Origin: Betaproteobacteria bacterium | Lineage (GTDB): Bacteria; Pseudomonadota; Gammaproteobacteria; Burkholderiales; Rhodocyclaceae | Assembly (NCBI GenBank): GCA_028065725.1 | Contig: JAPTVL010000129.1 | Location: 1-5,198 of the forward strand | Direction: 5' to 3' | DNA: 5,198 nt | Shown here: piece by piece, positions 1 to 5,198 of the stretch | Numbering within the stretch: the stretch's first letter is position 1 | How the letters are laid out: the number at the start of each line of letters is the position of its first letter | The notes under the pieces: generated by a model | Seen by the model: the letters and a program-made list of their open reading frames with translations, nothing else | Told to the model about the DNA's origin: nothing | The model's database searches: none | Program-made: the position numbers and the translations under genes

Positions 1-282
1 GGCGCGACGCGCGGAATCGACGTAGCCCTCGACCGGCTTGGTGATGAACACCGCGACCATGGCGGCGATGATGCCGGTGATCACCATCACCATGATCATC
101 TCGATCAGGGTGAAGCCGCGCAGCTTGGTGCGGCCCTTCAGGCCAATCCATGAACCGCCCGCACTAAGCCCACCCCACGGGGACTCCCTTCGGTCGTCAT
201 TGCGAGCGAAGCGCGGCAATCCAGACTGCCACGGCGCTGCGGCCTCGCAGTGACAGCAGGCGAAGCAATCTTGGCGGCTCAT
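1..282 (-). CDS. mshO: MshO-like type IV minor prepilin, N-terminal part (runs off window)
   Basis: Ninety-four codons are open from an ATG at 282 to the window edge; the C-terminus is missing. About 56 residues in is a class III prepilin cleavage site, KLRG^FTLIEM, with Glu at +5, followed by a hydrophobic helix and the segment AVFITKPVEGYVDSARRA, which is characteristic of MshO minor pseudopilins. The product is expected in the inner membrane, cut by the PilD-type peptidase, and built into the pilus tip/initiation complex with MshC and MshD. The ATG overlaps the mshD stop (ATGA), suggesting translational coupling; I see no clear Shine-Dalgarno. It is the only in-frame ATG before the cleavage site (TTG at 219 is an alternative). 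Oddity: the leader is very long because residues about 5-30 are encoded by a dispersed palindromic repeat (195-270). The family call is confident; the start is less so. Confidence 0.85.
   Translation of the reverse strand, partial: MSRQDCFACCHCEAAAPWQSGLPRFARNDDRRESPWGGLSAGGSWIGLKGRTKLRGFTLIEMIMVMVITGIIAAMVAVFITKPVEGYVDSARRA
195..270 (-). repeat. Dispersed palindromic repeat, copy B (mshD/mshO junction)
   Basis: This is a 76-bp copy of a repeat whose outer arms on the plus strand are CGTCATTGCGAG and CTCGCAGTGACAG, near-complementary and able to fold. It ends with GCAGGCGAAGCAATC. Read on the minus strand, 270-241 matches copy A (851-880) at 29 of 30 positions, and the rest aligns with small changes plus about 20 bp (204-223) absent from copy A. 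It begins 8 nt after the mshD stop codon and is translated without a stop as part of the MshO leader. The motif 'CATTGCGAG...GAAGCAATC' is recalled as a dispersed element type in many proteobacterial genomes; I cannot name a catalogued family from this window alone. Confidence 0.8.
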
Positions 283-935
283 GGCGCGAAGTTGGGCGAA
301 TGACGGGTGCGGTAGCCCTCCAGCGTCAGGCTGTCGGAACCGTGCGTGACCGTGACCGAGATGCGCAATGCCGCCGATCCCGACGTGGCGTCGCCCACAC
401 CGTCGAGCGCCTCGGGCGTGATGGTAATGGTCGCGCTGTAGCCCGCGGGCGCCGGGTTGTTGCCGGTGATGTCGGCGATCTGGCTGGGCAGTTGATAGCC
501 GCCATTGACGTAATAGTCATTGACGTTGTTGAACGGGTATGTCGTGCTGGTGCGCGCTTCGCTTACCCCGTTTACGGTTTCCGGTCCCAGGCCTTCCACT
601 ATCGTGCAGCCTGCCGTGCCGGTTGCCGTCGCCACATTCGGATCATTGGGATCGCACCAGGTGAAGGGCTGCATCTCGACCTCCTCGATGAGGCCCCCGG
701 CGATCGCCAGCATCTGCTTCCTGATCAGCGGATCGGCGCTGTTCCTCGCCGTGATGTTCAACACCGTGAGGATGCCGACGATGCCGACGCTGACGATGAC
801 GATGAACATCACCAGCTCGATCAGGGTCATGCCCGACGAACGCCCGCAGTGATTGCTTCGCCTGCTGTCATTGCGAGGCCCGCAGGGCCGTGGCAATCGC
901 AATGACATATCCACGGCCGGACGCTCAATGCACAT
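279..935 (-). CDS. mshD: MshD-like type IV minor prepilin
   Basis: A 218-residue prepilin. The cleavage site is SSG^MTLIEL at residues 35/36, with Met rather than Phe at +1 and Glu at +5, followed by a hydrophobic helix to about residue 60. The stretch ADPLIRKQMLAIAGGLIEEV (67-86) and then QPFTWCDPNDPNV, LGPE, FNNVNDYYV and LEGYRTRHSPNFAP are hallmarks of MshD. Cys94 and Cys110 may form a disulfide in the pilin head. The role is minor pseudopilin in pilus assembly at the inner membrane. ATG 935 overlaps the end of mshC by 11 nt; ATG 908 is an in-frame alternative lying at the edge of a repeat hairpin. ATG 830 cannot be the start because it would remove the cleavage Gly. No good Shine-Dalgarno is visible for either start. 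The leader (residues about 10-29) is encoded largely by palindromic repeat copy A. Mature length about 183 residues. Confidence 0.88.
   Translation of the reverse strand: MCIERPAVDMSLRLPRPCGPRNDSRRSNHCGRSSGMTLIELVMFIVIVSVGIVGILTVLNITARNSADPLIRKQMLAIAGGLIEEVEMQPFTWCDPNDPNVATATGTAGCTIVEGLGPETVNGVSEARTSTTYPFNNVNDYYVNGGYQLPSQIADITGNNPAPAGYSATITITPEALDGVGDATSGSAALRISVTVTHGSDSLTLEGYRTRHSPNFAP
851..907 (+). repeat. Dispersed palindromic repeat, copy A, with strong hairpin (mshC/mshD junction)
   Basis: A 57-bp copy of the same repeat as 195-270, in the opposite orientation. It contains a perfect 11-bp inverted repeat, TGTCATTGCGA (866-876) and TCGCAATGACA (897-907), and inside it a second stem, GGCCC (877-881) with GGGCC (885-889) around a 3-nt loop. 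The transcript can therefore form a long bipartite hairpin immediately downstream of the ATG at 908 and inside the mshD leader. Compared with copy B it lacks about 20 internal bp. It is open in the mshD frame and encodes leader residues LRLPRPCGPRNDSRRSN. A role in mRNA stability or translation is inference only. Confidence 0.82.
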
Positions 936-1512: not shown

Positions 1513-4335
1513 CTACGGAGCCGACCCAGTCGCCTTGGAGACCAGAGGAAAACACGCATTGCGCTCCGACTCGATCCGTTCTTGTGTCGGTGCTTCGGGA
1601 TAAGCCAAGGCCCAAAGGTCGAAGCTCGCTCCCTGTTCCACGACCATCGCCCGGAAGCCGCCTTCCTCCAGTTCCCGAGCCAGGCTGCGCGCGGTAAAGC
1701 CGGTCTTGTGCGCCATGTAGAGATTGCCCTTGGCCAGCGATGCCCGGTGGCCATAGAGCATATCGATCGGAGCGATCGGGCCTGCCGGCGAAACATAGGC
1801 GGGCTCCTCCAATTCGTCGGCGGCGACCAGTGCACAGATTGGCTGCAAGTCGGGACAGGTCAGCACCAGCATCCCTTCGGGCTTGAGAACCCGCCTGAAC
1901 TCCTTGAGCGCCACCGGGACTTCGTGCGGGTGGAGATGCTCGATGGTGTGCGACGAATAAACGGCATCGACACTGGCACTCTCGACCGAGGACATGTCGA
2001 GCATGCTGGCGACCACGTCGGGCATGGCGTCCGGATCGATGTCGAGGCGGATCTCGCGCCAGCGGCTCTGGAACAGGCGCGGCATGGAGCGGCGATCGGC
2101 TCGGCCGCAGCCGACGTGAAGCACGGTCTTGCTCGCGATGGCAGGCGCGGCATGGATTCCGCCGTCCAGCTTTTCGCCTTCGCACCAGGCTCGCCACATG
2201 CGCCGGTAGAGCAGCTCCAGGTCGCGGGTGAATTGCTCCGGCTGGCACAGCGGGCTGTCTTTCATCCGCCCGCGCAGCCCGCGCCGCAGTTTGCGCAGGC
2301 GCCCGGGATCGCCGGCGAGCGAAACGGCGCCGGCGACGTAGGCATCGACATCGGCGAAGATCAATTCGGTCAGGCCGATATTGGTCAGCGCCGAAGTCGT
2401 CTGGCGCGAGACCACGCTGTCGCCGGCGATGGTCACCACCGGCACCCCCATCCACAGCGCTTCGAGCGTGGTCATGCCGCCGTTGAAGGGAAAGGTGTCG
2501 AGCGCGATGTCGATGTCGCCGTACTCGGCGAACATCTGCCCATGCGCAGAGACTTCGCGTAAGTCCAGGCGATCCCGTCCGATGCCCTGCGCCGCGAAGC
2601 GTTCGGCCAGGCGATCCTTGACCGCTTCCTCGGACAGCGCGCCGGACTTGACGACGAGCCGGCTTTGCGCGACGGACTGAAGAATCCTGGCCCAGGCCGA
2701 CACGACCTCGTCGGTCATCTTGGGCAGGCGATTGAAGGAACCGAAGGTGATGCTCCCCGACTTTTCAAGCGGCGGCGCTGCGACCTCGGGCGCGTACTCG
2801 GGCGGCCCGTAACAGAAGCGGGTATGCGGCAGAAAGGCCGGGGTTTCTGAAAAAAGCTGCCCGCCCCCGGGCGGCGTGGTGAACGGATCGGTGATGAAGT
2901 AATCGATGGCGCTCAGTCCGGTCGAATGGAAGTAACCGATCCACTCGGCCTGCACGGGGGCGGGCCGGCGGGCGAAGACCAGCAGGCGATGGAAGGCGGT
3001 ATGGCCGGACAGATCGACCAGGATATCGATTTCGGCCTTGCGGATCAGATCGGCGAGTTCCTCGTCGCTGTGGAAGAAGATGTCCTCCCAATGCTCGGCC
3101 GCCTGCCGCAGTTCGGGCAGGACGTCCTGCTCCCGGACGACCATGGAGAAGCAATGAATCTCGAACAGGCTGCCGTCGTGGTGGCGCAGCACGTCGCGCA
3201 GCAGGAAGCCCACCGGGTGTCGGACGAAGTCGCCGGAGACGTAGCCGATGCGCAGCTTGCGCTGCGGATCGCGGTCGCGCGCCGCAAAATCGTCCGGGGC
3301 CCGCAGCGGCAGCTCGAAGCGCCGCGCCCAGTCGAGATGGCGCTGGAAAACCGCCTCCGGAGCGATCCGCGACTGGTTGTTGAGCTCGAACAGGACGTTC
3401 GAATACATGCCCGGCTGCTGGCCGTCCAGTTCGATGACCTTCTCATAGAGCGGCAGCGCCGCCGCGGAATCGCCGCCCGAACTGAGGCAGGAGCCGAGCG
3501 TGACCAGGGCGATGATGCTCTCCGGCTGGCGCGCGAGTATGCGCCGGCACAGTTCCTCCGACTGGCTGAGGTGGCCGGCCGCCTGATGGGCGGCGGCGAG
3601 AAAACCCAGCGCCTGGATGGTTTCGCCGCGCTCCCTGATCTGGCGCTCGATGTAGCCGATGGCGTTGGCCATTTCCTCGCGCGAGCCCAGCAGCGTCGCG
3701 AGATTGAAGTGCGCCTCCGGGTAATCCGGGCGCAGCTCCAGCGCCCGTCGGTACTGCGCGATGCCCTGCTTGGCGCGGCCGGTCTGGATCAGCACATTGC
3801 CCAGGTTGAGGTGGGCCTCGGGCCGGTCCGGCTCGTCCGCCACCAGGGCTTCCGCGGCCGCGCGCGCCTCGTCGAAACGCGCCAGTTCGAACAGGGCCGC
3901 GATCCTGTTCAGTCTTGCCTCGAAGAAGCCGGGTTTGCAGGCGAGCGCCCGATCGAACCAGACGAGCGCTTCCTCGTGTTGCCCCTTGGCGATGCACCAT
4001 TCGCCGAGATTGCTCAGGGCCTGCGGATAATCGGGCTTGAGCGCCAGCGCGCGCAGGTAGGCCTCCCGCGCCTCGTCGAGATTATCGGCGTGGCGATACG
4101 CGGCGCCCAGGCTGCACCAGAGACCCGCATCCTCCGGCCTGGCCGCCAGCGCCGTTTCGAGCTGCAAAATCGCGGCCTCGGCCTCGCCCCGGGACAGCGC
4201 CCGGCGGGCCAGCGCGTGCATCGCCTCGACGTCGCCCGCCCCGGCGACCCGCGCATCGACCACGTCGGCGACCGCGCCGAGCCCGCGCCTGTCGAGCCAG
4301 CGCGCGATCCAGCGCATCACGCGGCCCCGGCTCAT
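1513..4335 (-). CDS. TPR - SPINDLY/OGT-type glycosyltransferase - SAM methyltransferase fusion
   Basis: A 940-residue cytoplasmic enzyme with no signal peptide or membrane segment. Residues about 37-308 form eight 34-residue TPRs (repeat tails such as ALALKPDYP, ALELRPDYP at even spacing). Residues about 360-715 match the O-GlcNAc transferase/SPINDLY family: RIGYVSGDFVRHPVGFL (362-378, with His373 where OGT has its HP motif), DILVDLSGHTAFHR, RPAPVQAEWIGY, DYFITDP, FGSFNRLPKM (Lys539 aligns with the phosphate-contacting Lys of OGT), and DTFPFNGGMTTLEALWMGVP (613-632). Residues about 736-910 are a class I methyltransferase: VLHVGCGRA (738-746), LDIDPDAMPDVV, HTIEHLH and RVLKPEGMLVLTCPD. Expected activity is transfer of a sugar from a nucleotide sugar to Ser/Thr of a protein bound by the TPRs, with methylation of sugar or protein. 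It lies between mshA and mshC, suggesting pilin as substrate (inference). ATG 4335 is 5 nt after the upstream stop; ATG 4317 is possible. In-frame sequence upstream of 4335 is the shadow of the 91-residue gene. Confidence 0.9.
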   Translation of the reverse strand: MSRGRVMRWIARWLDRRGLGAVADVVDARVAGAGDVEAMHALARRALSRGEAEAAILQLETALAARPEDAGLWCSLGAAYRHADNLDEAREAYLRALALKPDYPQALSNLGEWCIAKGQHEEALVWFDRALACKPGFFEARLNRIAALFELARFDEARAAAEALVADEPDRPEAHLNLGNVLIQTGRAKQGIAQYRRALELRPDYPEAHFNLATLLGSREEMANAIGYIERQIRERGETIQALGFLAAAHQAAGHLSQSEELCRRILARQPESIIALVTLGSCLSSGGDSAAALPLYEKVIELDGQQPGMYSNVLFELNNQSRIAPEAVFQRHLDWARRFELPLRAPDDFAARDRDPQRKLRIGYVSGDFVRHPVGFLLRDVLRHHDGSLFEIHCFSMVVREQDVLPELRQAAEHWEDIFFHSDEELADLIRKAEIDILVDLSGHTAFHRLLVFARRPAPVQAEWIGYFHSTGLSAIDYFITDPFTTPPGGGQLFSETPAFLPHTRFCYGPPEYAPEVAAPPLEKSGSITFGSFNRLPKMTDEVVSAWARILQSVAQSRLVVKSGALSEEAVKDRLAERFAAQGIGRDRLDLREVSAHGQMFAEYGDIDIALDTFPFNGGMTTLEALWMGVPVVTIAGDSVVSRQTTSALTNIGLTELIFADVDAYVAGAVSLAGDPGRLRKLRRGLRGRMKDSPLCQPEQFTRDLELLYRRMWRAWCEGEKLDGGIHAAPAIASKTVLHVGCGRADRRSMPRLFQSRWREIRLDIDPDAMPDVVASMLDMSSVESASVDAVYSSHTIEHLHPHEVPVALKEFRRVLKPEGMLVLTCPDLQPICALVAADELEEPAYVSPAGPIAPIDMLYGHRASLAKGNLYMAHKTGFTARSLARELEEGGFRAMVVEQGASFDLWALAYPEAPTQERIESERNACFPLVSKATGSAP

Positions 4336-4340
4336 GGCGC

Positions 4341-4616
4341 TCAGGAAAAGGAATTCAGAACGAGGGAAAACACCAGCTTGCGCACCACGTCCGGCGGTAT
4401 GCCCGCCGCGATCAGGCGCGGCTGCAGCAGGAAAGCCGCGCGCGCCCGGCCGATCACGCCCAGCGCGTGGCGGCGGCGTATCTCCCTGGCCTGCGCCTGG
4501 AACCTGCCCAGCGCGCCGGCCCACTCCGCCTCGCTCGTGCGTTTTTTCCTGGCTTGCGGCGCGCAGCGGAAGAAGGCGGCCTCCAGCTCGGCGGCGACCT
4601 GCGCGGCTTTGCTCAC
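4341..4616 (-). CDS. Small basic protein of unknown function
   Basis: A 91-residue frame with a GTG start and a TGA stop 5 nt before the TPR-glycosyltransferase start. I do not recognise a family. It is Ala/Arg-rich and predicted mostly helical. Residues about 5-20 and 30-60 look amphipathic, with basic patches QARKKR and REIRRRH. The C-terminus, PRLIAAGIPPDVVRKLVFSL, is more hydrophobic and could be an interaction helix. There is no signal peptide or convincing membrane segment. Its tight spacing with the glycosyltransferase suggests a shared role, for example a chaperone or regulator (inference). There is no clear Shine-Dalgarno before the GTG, and an in-frame TGA lies 39 nt upstream, so no ATG alternative exists. 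The opposite strand and the other frame here are also open, as expected at this GC, so its reality rests on operon fit and on sequence that looks protein-like. Confidence 0.65.
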   Translation of the reverse strand: MSKAAQVAAELEAAFFRCAPQARKKRTSEAEWAGALGRFQAQAREIRRRHALGVIGRARAAFLLQPRLIAAGIPPDVVRKLVFSLVLNSFS

Positions 4617-5114: not shown

Positions 5115-5198
5115 TCAACAACCCGTGGTATCGACCGCCGAGATCTGCGCCGGCACCGAAGCGGAAGCGGCCTGGGTATAGGTGAACATGCAATGGCT
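5115..5198 (-). CDS. C-terminal end of an MshA/MshB-like pilin (cut by window edge)
   Basis: The last 27 codons before a TGA stop. The peptide includes CMFTYTQAASASVPAQISAV and ends in TTGC. A Cys followed by a [MLV]xYTQA-type strand and a terminal Cys is the usual disulfide-closed C-terminus of MSHA pilins. Its position just before the MshA-like gene corresponds to mshB in the known mshB-A-C-D-O order, but a second mshA copy cannot be excluded without the N-terminus. The stop codon is 21 nt from the downstream TTG start, so the two pilins are probably cotranscribed. Confidence 0.75.
   Translation of the reverse strand, partial: SHCMFTYTQAASASVPAQISAVDTTGC

Follow-up and report, generated by a model that had tools for sequence, protein, structure and literature searches.

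Gene organization of the locus

The 5,198-nt stretch of DNA analysed here (the window) encodes on its minus strand the tail of MshB, followed by MshA, a 91-aa ORF, a 940-aa TPR-GT41-methyltransferase protein, MshC, MshD and MshO (Table 1). The order of mshA, C, D and O with pilin leaders, a feature of MSHA loci, is present in the window. The arrangement follows the B-A-C-D-O order of the MSHA (msh) operon but differs in the extra genes between A and C, numbering only two in the window, L001 and L002 (L numbers denote individual loci) and six in L004. According to Pfam, MshA, MshC and MshO carry the N_methyl motif of pilins, with MshD falling below the cut-off. The MshO-like part matches L001, L002 and L004 at 60–66% over 40–49 residues, and L003 at 49%. 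The true start of the MshD-like protein is probably internal to its ORF, and that of the MshO-like protein probably lies near position 183. MshE and MshG are beyond the window; they are encoded upstream in L216, the closest relative of the window, and in L001, L002 and L004. In L001, the upstream order reads E-G-F-B-A; this locus is from Noviherbaspirillum autotrophicum TSA66, which has the complete cassette with the fused gene.

An earlier note on this DNA had described two additional, tightly spaced genes between mshA and mshC. The ORF order and the gaps of 48, 5 and 18 nt around the inserted genes bear this out, and no terminator-like sites were found in these gaps. Two overlapping terminator-like matches are both internal to the fusion gene, and the single promoter-like match is on the opposite strand.

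Table 1. Features of the window
Feature	Position	Strand	Evidence
MshB-like upstream pilin, C-terminal tail	5115-5198	minus	translation, ends ...DTTGC; by-eye comparison of position and ending with mshB of L131
MshA-like major pilin, 132 aa	4665-5063	minus	N_methyl 1.4e-9; BLAST to MshA of L001-L004, L049
Small basic helical companion protein, 91 aa, pI 11.7, GTG start	4341-4616	minus	homologues, co-occurrence, model
TPR-GT41-methyltransferase fusion, 940 aa, ATG start	1513-4335	minus	ORF, Pfam, structure model
TPR superhelix, about residues 3-319	3379-4329	minus	Pfam TPR families; helix pairs in model
GT41 catalytic domain, about residues 361-720	2176-3255	minus	H373 at 3217-3219, K539 at 2719-2721
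SAM-dependent methyltransferase domain, about residues 736-912	1600-2130	minus	Methyltransf_11; model strands and helices
MshC-like minor pilin (GspH/FimT type)	925-1494	minus	N_methyl and GspH (Pfam); BLAST to post-cassette genes of L001-L004
MshD-like minor pilin	279-935	minus	44-50% identity to L001, L002, L004; 30% to L003
MshO-like pilin, 5' part only, cut by window end	1-282	minus	N_methyl 7.1e-8; BLAST

The fusion protein and its small companion

The larger of the inserted genes had been read as a TPR-OGT-methyltransferase. Its three domains are supported by Pfam (GT41 5.6e-52, several TPR families, and Methyltransf_11 4e-10 at residues 739–825) and by an AlphaFold2 model with a mean pLDDT of 85.9, but an OGT-like donor site is not. 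The features of the GT41 family, namely the catalytic domain, the N-terminal TPR superhelix and the catalytic Lys, are all present. K539 occupies the catalytic Lys position (SPY K665, TtOGT K341), and both this Lys and His 373 are conserved in 15/15 members of the main msh clade described below. The Wzy_C and PglL_A membrane domains are absent among the Pfam matches listed (25 of 29 families).

Residues discriminating between the donors of SPINDLY (GDP-fucose; K689, A731 and Y744) and OGT (UDP-GlcNAc; L866, R904 and C917) have been reported, together with an intermediate prokaryotic group showing mixed patterns (PMC10027727). At the corresponding positions the fusion has K563, E604 and F617, retaining one of the three SPINDLY residues and matching none of the OGT-like set. 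The Lys is maintained in 14 members of the main msh clade and replaced by Arg in the remaining one. Since none of the three positions is OGT-like, O-GlcNAc (HexNAc) is not favored and we dropped the O-GlcNAc transferase reading; judging from these residues, a GDP-sugar is a likelier donor than HexNAc. The site is nevertheless mixed, having a SPINDLY-like Lys yet Phe for Tyr 744 and Glu for Ala 731 of SPINDLY, and we count this against the model proposed below. The fusion further differs from SPINDLY, a plant GT41 protein O-fucosyltransferase, in its C-terminal methyltransferase and pilus locus.

The 91-aa ORF, for which 10 homologues were found, is modeled as four helices (pLDDT 85.6). It has no Pfam or NCBIfam match at an E-value of 1, just two weak PHROG matches of unknown function (0.012 and 0.19) and no PDB fold match at 0.001 (best E-value 1.8). 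Previously mentioned simply as a small gene, it is a constant cassette partner rather than an incidental ORF: it is present in all 18 testable cassettes, or 17/17 without L221, which was recognized through that very ORF.

Recurrence of the cassette in one slot

Altogether 19 cassettes were found, the window included, two of them cut at contig ends (L221 and L225). The arrangement is not a chance one: beyond the window, 18 loci have a GT41 gene in an msh-type setting and 17 of these carry the small ORF. A pilin lies immediately upstream of the small ORF in 17/17 testable cassettes, adjacency to a pilin or msh gene being partly the criterion for calling a cassette. The two cut contigs start at the small ORF (L221), so that a pilus setting is deduced there, and inside the GT41 gene (L225).

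The survey of msh operons proposed by the earlier note covered 300 genomes of the window's order, with mshE in 81 of them and 66 loci readable. The small ORF and the GT41 gene recur together in 3 of these 66 loci, and both are absent from the other 78 msh loci, of which 63 could be read all the way from mshG to mshD/O. When the survey loci are ranked by the gap between mshG and mshD/O, the top six comprise three GT41 cassettes, two Wzy_C loci and one toxin-antitoxin-like locus. In the latter, L115, toxin-antitoxin-like genes occupy the slot, as assessed by eye. In L102, mshA is separated from mshC by a Wzy_C gene, and L129 has a gene with PglL_A, Wzy_C and Wzy_C_2 between mshF and mshA.

A scan of genome contigs yielded at least 79 loci. 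For GT41 relatives, at most 4 or 3 candidates were scored per genome and 60 matches were listed. Contexts of 20 kb, sought at 20 places, comprised 10 msh loci, the deduced one (L221), one PilA-type locus (L233), seven loci without a nearby pilin motif (L217, L218, L222, L229, L231, L232 and L234) and a 3.2-kb contig already in the set; the remaining contexts came from the contig scan alone or reached at most about 1.5 kb. In L231, a 202-aa ORF that resembles MshC by BLAST precedes the first GT41 by 4.7 kb.

Relatives outside pilus loci and evolutionary history

The earlier note had considered the pairing of both activities in one chain as the unusual part. This view does not hold. GT41-methyltransferase fusions are common and also occur away from pilin genes in L217 and L218, which form a sister group at 49% identity; rarity can therefore not be claimed for the fusion itself. 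In L229, a GT41 gene without a pilin call adjoins a separate methyltransferase gene. A search returned 4,879 matches among 7,999 scored candidates, and 93 of the 120 matches listed carry both PF13844 and PF08241 (counted by eye and irrespective of context). We therefore dropped the fusion as a novel element.

Phylogenetic analysis relied on a quick tree of 142 rows and a careful tree for which 54 sequences were taken from a collection of 168 (19 from msh loci and 35 others hand-picked from the quick tree). One clade of 15 rows consists of msh sequences only (SH-aLRT 99), and four other msh rows fall elsewhere. A pilin or msh gene adjoins 14 of the 15, window included, while L221 is cut at the contig end. 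The earlier note named homologues lying mostly outside pilus loci as a refuting outcome. This is not what the close clade shows, but it does describe the wider GT41 family, where 104 of 142 rows lack a pilin motif in the DNA examined. The AU test on the 54 sequences rejected a single clade for all 19 msh members (p-AU 0.00015), and with it the idea that GT41 entered msh loci only once. The msh label requires 3 changes on the careful tree and 2 on the quick one, and two or more separate GT41 lineages occur in one slot, accompanied by one kind of small ORF.

It could be argued that the genes are mere passengers that landed in the operon and have no pilus role, given their rarity, the toxin-antitoxin-like genes that can take the slot in L115 and the related fusions elsewhere. 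However, we consider this very improbable, because at least two separate lineages share both slot and small ORF, the genes are tightly spaced, and the small ORF accompanies the cassettes (18/18 testable against 0/78 other loci).

Exchange of the second module

The second module varies among cassettes, being either a methyltransferase (fused, separate or FkbM-type) or a second glycosyltransferase. A GT2-like domain takes the place of the methyltransferase in L004 and L226, an FkbM methyltransferase replaces the fused one in L106 and L228, and nothing was seen there in L049 and L227. The msh operon of L004 contains FdtA (2.6e-59), a DegT aminotransferase, GNAT and GT2. This speaks for a glycan dedicated to the MSHA pilin, the first sugar of which would be capped.

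The same substitutions bear on the idea that the methyltransferase modifies protein, either a pilin side chain or the N-terminus, in a reaction unconnected with the sugar. The domain is of a generic SAM-dependent type and type IV pilins do become N-methylated, but this is carried out by an enzyme of their own, the PilD-type prepilin peptidase. Replacement by GT2-like or FkbM domains, or by nothing visible, is what would be expected for sugar capping, and protein methylation seems improbable to us.

Sugar-related neighbors might instead suggest that GT41 builds or decorates a polysaccharide: by eye, L218 sits among sugar-nucleotide genes, FdtA and DegT accompany L004, and HMW1C also adds a second hexose onto the first (PMC3012730). 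Yet the GT41 enzymes characterized in PMC9715652 and PMC3012730 modify proteins, and in the window, L001 and L002 the two genes are all that lies between mshA and mshC. We consider a polysaccharide target highly unlikely.

The neighboring pilins had been described as having Ser/Thr-rich heads. For MshA the content is indeed raised, but only slightly, with a median of 25.5% in 18 cassette heads versus 21.9% in 31 others (p 0.003, not corrected for relatedness). The motif filter retains 14 of 17 cassette loci; an earlier version of the comparison mixed MshA with MshB. Since the difference is small, we set it aside as strong evidence and place no weight on it.

A proposed model of pilin glycosylation in the cytosol

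Taken together, the repeated use of one slot, the interchange with genes for PglL-type ligases and for sugar biosynthesis, and a pilin gene just upstream lead us to retain the dedicated MSHA modification system proposed earlier, in the form of a cytosolic cassette dedicated to glycosylating the MSHA type IV pilus (probability of about two in three). Gene order, the constant ORF, conserved catalytic residues, module swaps and the Wzy_C/PglL ligases in or beside the slot of other species form the rest of its basis, with FlmG and HMW1C (see below) as precedents; from these we infer the pilin as acceptor, modification before translocation, the donor type, methylation of sugar rather than protein, and what the companion does. 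Since the heads of pilins pass through the inner membrane via Sec, any cytosolic enzyme would have to work ahead of insertion. At that stage, new MshA prepilin, and possibly minor pilins, would be captured by the TPR arm together with the small helical protein. The SPINDLY-type GT41 domain would draw on a nucleotide donor, probably a GDP-sugar, and transfer a single sugar onto Ser/Thr in the head of the pilin; the fused methyltransferase would then cap the added sugar by methylation. Relatives may use a second sugar or FkbM methylation for this purpose. Besides the mixed donor site, we count against this model the need to act before translocation, the L217, L218 and L229 genes without pilins, the rarity of the cassette and the small rise in Ser/Thr.

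Could the enzyme instead modify a cytosolic part of the pilus machine, such as the MshE motor, or itself, as an activity switch? This would avoid the translocation problem and agrees with the N-terminus of the fusion, where no signal peptide or membrane segment was seen by eye and model helices start at residue 3. SPINDLY, moreover, fucosylates intracellular proteins and itself (PMC9715652, PMC10027727). However, the slot directly follows mshA, not mshE; Wzy_C/PglL-type genes occupy the slot or its edge in L102 and L129; and a capping step accompanied by FdtA-type sugar synthesis (L004) is more in keeping with a glycan on the surface than with a switch. Wzy_C/PglL-type enzymes act on exported proteins. 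We regard a switch as unlikely, and favor the pilin as acceptor.

Relation to known systems and implications

Glycosylation of type IV pilins is usually described as periplasmic chemistry (PglL, PilO). Among GT41 enzymes, the gene of the N-glycosyltransferase HMW1C adjoins its substrate gene, and we know of no methyltransferase in HMW1C/NGT. HMW1C glycosylates a secreted adhesin in the cytoplasm, a precedent for cytosolic modification, but it uses an Asn acceptor, lacks the TPR arm and serves a different route, two-partner secretion (PMC3012730). Closer in layout is FlmG, a cytosolic flagellin O-glycosyltransferase of Caulobacter, in which an N-terminal TPR region binds the subunit of a surface filament and a C-terminal GT-B domain follows (PMC7591256). 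FlmG, however, modifies flagellin, which leaves the cell through the flagellar apparatus, and the sugar is pseudaminic acid; the parts of PMC7591256 used here describe neither a methyltransferase nor a small companion of the 91-aa family. PglL/PilO O-oligosaccharyltransferases likewise provide dedicated pilin glycosylation, and related genes occupy the msh slot or its edge in L129 and L102, but they are membrane enzymes that use a lipid-linked donor and work at the periplasmic face (PMC7591256) and have no Pfam domain in common with the fusion. In the part of the open-licence literature searched by title, we found no GT41 enzyme of a type IV pilus, and a cytosolic GT41 serving such a pilus appears undescribed there; the part of PMC7762298 used here concerns MSHA pili and a PglB and does not mention GT41.

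The odds seem to us evenly balanced that the cassette represents a third route of type IV pilin glycosylation, in which a soluble SPINDLY-type GDP-sugar transferase and its companion act on cytosolic prepilin, the cap (methyl or second sugar) is exchangeable, and recruitment took place at least twice into the msh slot where other species keep PglL-type periplasmic ligases.

In some bacteria related to Burkholderia, a swappable gene set right after the main pilin gene apparently serves to attach a sugar and then decorate it inside the cell. As a compact attach-and-cap module beside its presumed acceptor, the cassette makes acceptor, donor and cap separately testable. If the model is true, modification of prepilins is possible in the cytosol, and the question arises of how a head that already bears a sugar gets across the membrane. 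Part of the large and mostly uncharacterized family of SPINDLY-like proteins in bacteria would also gain a function, as would a small companion that has no Pfam or NCBIfam model.

Recurrence of the cassette

The pairing of a small ORF with a TPR-GT41 gene between mshA and mshC recurs well beyond the window. Loci were collected from a scan of genome contigs (at least 79 loci) and two family-level searches, the first with matches (E ≤ 1e-90) in 28 of 297 genomes and the second with matches in 19 of 392; gene order was read by script. We counted 19 cassettes, window included. A pilin lies directly upstream of the small ORF in 17/17 testable cassettes, a count that is partly true by definition, since a cassette was taken as a GT41 gene adjoining a pilin or msh gene. 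The contig of L221 starts at the small ORF, and it was this ORF together with the methyltransferase and GT41 genes that identified the locus; the contig of L225 starts within the GT41 gene, with MshC, D and O following. In L049 and L227, an MshA-like pilin is the sole msh identifier.

The small ORF is present in all 18 testable cassettes (17/17 if L221 is excluded). Our model of it rests solely on ten sequences from the window's family and on loci L001–L004. In the remaining cassette loci this model detects the ORF with E values of 2.6e-4 or lower; L216 probably belongs to the model via its homologue. The product is basic (pI 11.7 in the window, 9.8 to 11.7 across 17 members), and the window enzyme has a pI of 5.6.

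For a view of the operon independent of GT41, we sampled 300 genomes spread evenly over the order to which L001 belongs. Of these, 81 encode an MshE relative (E 1e-140); the sequence following mshE, at most 20 kb, was taken from 80 of them, with L001 serving as the 81st. In 66 loci the sequence could be read from mshG as far as an mshD or mshO on the same strand (median distance 1,960 nt). The other 15 comprised six short contig ends and nine in which 20 kb contained no same-strand D or O gene; the nine include L085 and L121, where these genes are inverted. Three of the 66 readable loci hold the cassette. Neither the small ORF nor GT41 was seen in the 78 surveyed msh loci lacking a cassette, 63 of them readable from mshG to mshD/O; one such locus, L145, has a weak methyltransferase match (E 0.0027). 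The cassette is thus rare among msh loci.

The six longest mshG-to-D/O stretches were those of L106, L115, L001, L131, L102 and L129. GT41 cassettes account for L001, L106 and L131. Between its MshA and MshC, L102 encodes a Wzy_C protein of 666 aa, whose NCBIfam match to an O-glycosylation ligase is only sub-threshold; in L129, a protein of 607 aa with PglL_A, Wzy_C and Wzy_C_2 domains is encoded between MshF and MshA. Glycosylation-type genes therefore occupy five of the six largest insertions. The sixth, L115, carries toxin-antitoxin-like small genes between mshA and mshC (by eye), indicating that the slot also accepts unrelated cargo.

Coordinates of features in the window and in compared loci
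Locus	Position	Strand	Feature
Window	1513..4335	minus	940-aa TPR-GT41-methyltransferase fusion
Window	4341..4616	minus	Small ORF, 91 aa
Window	241-277 and 844-880		Inverted repeat with arms of 37 nt (89% complementarity); the first arm lies shortly after the end of mshD, the second overlaps the 5′ end of its ORF
L115	about 5004-7700		Toxin-antitoxin-like small genes
L217	9971-17037	minus	GT41-methyltransferase fusion after RTX/S-layer-like repeat ORF and 511-aa ORF (by eye)
L219	6825-8681		Three tandem MshA-like pilins; small ORF between copies 1 and 2, not beside GT41
L015	16601-16888		Weak small-ORF relative, GT41 locus without pilin motif
L032	9763-9942		Weak small-ORF relative, GT41 locus without pilin motif
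L043	11932-12462		Weak small-ORF relative, GT41 locus without pilin motif

The inverted repeat in the window resembles a dispersed REP-like element present in two copies of opposite orientation (element type by eye), which would also lengthen the predicted N-termini of mshD and mshO.

Origin of the enzymes and exchange of the second module

A quick tree covering 142 GT41 domains places 15 of the msh sequences, the window's included, in an exclusive clade (SH-aLRT 99), outside which fall those of L106, L228, L049 and L227. Monophyly of all 19 was rejected on a smaller, more carefully built tree with 54 rows (p-AU 0.00015). At least two lineages of GT41 have therefore come to occupy the slot, and the same small ORF accompanies each. 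Nearest to the window's fused enzyme are those of L216 and L003, both with a separate methyltransferase, which implies fusion or fission more than once.

The second-step module differs among the 19 cassettes.

Second modules by cassette (Pfam for L003, L004, L106, L225, L226 and L228; our own profile of the window's methyltransferase family for the others)
Module	Arrangement	Cassettes
Methyltransf_11	fused to GT41	window, L001 (Noviherbaspirillum autotrophicum), L002 (Herbaspirillum sp. ST 5-3), L224
Methyltransf_11 type	separate, between small ORF and GT41	L003 (Rhodoferax MAG), L131, L216, L220, L221, L223, L230
Methyltransf_11 type	separate, after GT41	L219
GT2-like domain	fused	L004 (Oxalobacteraceae bacterium OM1), L226
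FkbM methyltransferase	fused	L228
FkbM methyltransferase	separate	L106
Methyltransf_23 type	separate	L225
None seen		L049 (Sterolibacterium MAG), L227

Such a swap of methyltransferase for glycosyltransferase would fit capping of the first sugar better than protein methylation. Ahead of mshC, L004 also encodes a GT2, a GNAT acetyltransferase, FdtA (2.6e-59) and a DegT aminotransferase, which together resemble a dTDP-3-amino-3,6-dideoxyhexose pathway. No NCBIfam model scored above cut-off for its FdtA, GNAT and DegT proteins, so this sugar is a candidate.

Active site and sugar donor

Window K539 aligns with the Lys that is catalytic in SPINDLY (K665) and in the OGT of Thermobaculum (K341, replaced by Met in 5djs), and both H373 and K539 are invariant in a 34-sequence alignment (A1). 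One study names three residues as governing donor choice, and places some prokaryotic enzymes in an intermediate group that mixes the patterns (PMC10027727). SPINDLY K689 corresponds to window K563 (K in 14 of the 15 msh-clade members, R in one), the A731/R904 position to E604 (window only, by eye) and the Y744/C917 position to F617 (F in 15/15). None of the three window residues is OGT-like, which makes HexNAc, one of the sugars named in the earlier note, less likely; we infer a GDP-sugar donor. The sugar need not be fucose, because the fucose-holding tyrosine is Phe (F617).

A putative cytosolic route for pilin modification

The pilin is the candidate acceptor. The earlier note called the pilin heads Ser/Thr-rich, but MshA heads from cassette loci exceed those from comparison loci only slightly in Ser/Thr (median 25.5%, 18 heads from 14 loci, vs 21.9%, 31 heads from 30 loci; p 0.003, ignoring relatedness), a difference too small to favour this reading. 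Most likely, MshA is modified by a cytosolic attach-and-cap route, whose steps beyond gene order and catalytic residues we infer as follows. The TPR arm would bind prepilin MshA in the cytosol, while the basic four-helix companion perhaps holds the prepilin or docks on the acidic enzyme. GT41 would add the first sugar, the methyltransferase would then cap it, and the capped pilin would afterwards be inserted in the membrane and assembled. Hardest to explain is how a pilin head carrying the modification would cross the inner membrane. There are precedents: the TPR glycosyltransferase FlmG recognizes its filament subunit in the cytosol (PMC7591256), and the GT41 enzyme HMW1C modifies an adhesin there, with secretion afterwards (PMC3012730).

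Neither the enzyme family nor the msh operon nor the glycosylation of pilins is new; judged by title, the open-licence literature matches listed include no GT41 enzyme serving a type IV pilus.

GT41 genes outside msh operons

Among the best matches of both family-level searches (E 1e-140 or better), 9 of 11 lie in msh loci. The other two are GT41-methyltransferase fusions, in L217 beside a repeat-rich RTX-like ORF with no pilin gene and in L218 among sugar-nucleotide genes, away from pilin genes (both by eye). Together with L229, a GT41 and methyltransferase pair also not at pilin genes, their setting counts against the pilin-modification reading, as does the rarity of the cassette. L217 is possibly another surface-protein glycosylation pair.

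GT41 genes also lie near PilA-type pilins in ten non-msh loci (L031, L033, L035, L036, L054, L064, L067, L071, L076 and L233). At such loci, found in Rhodocyclales, Geobacter/Pelobacter, Polaromonas and others, TPR-GT41 genes often stand two or three in a row and encode up to 3,732 aa. Weaker small-ORF relatives occur at three of them (L064, E 1.5e-9; L076, 3.6e-4; L036, 1.6e-3). Further relatives in L032, L015 and L043 (E 0.003 to 0.011) are possibly due to chance; those of L015 and L032 lie directly before, or overlap, the start of the GT41 ORF. The small ORF may accompany TPR-GT41 enzymes in general, and the GT41–pilin pairing may be wider than msh.
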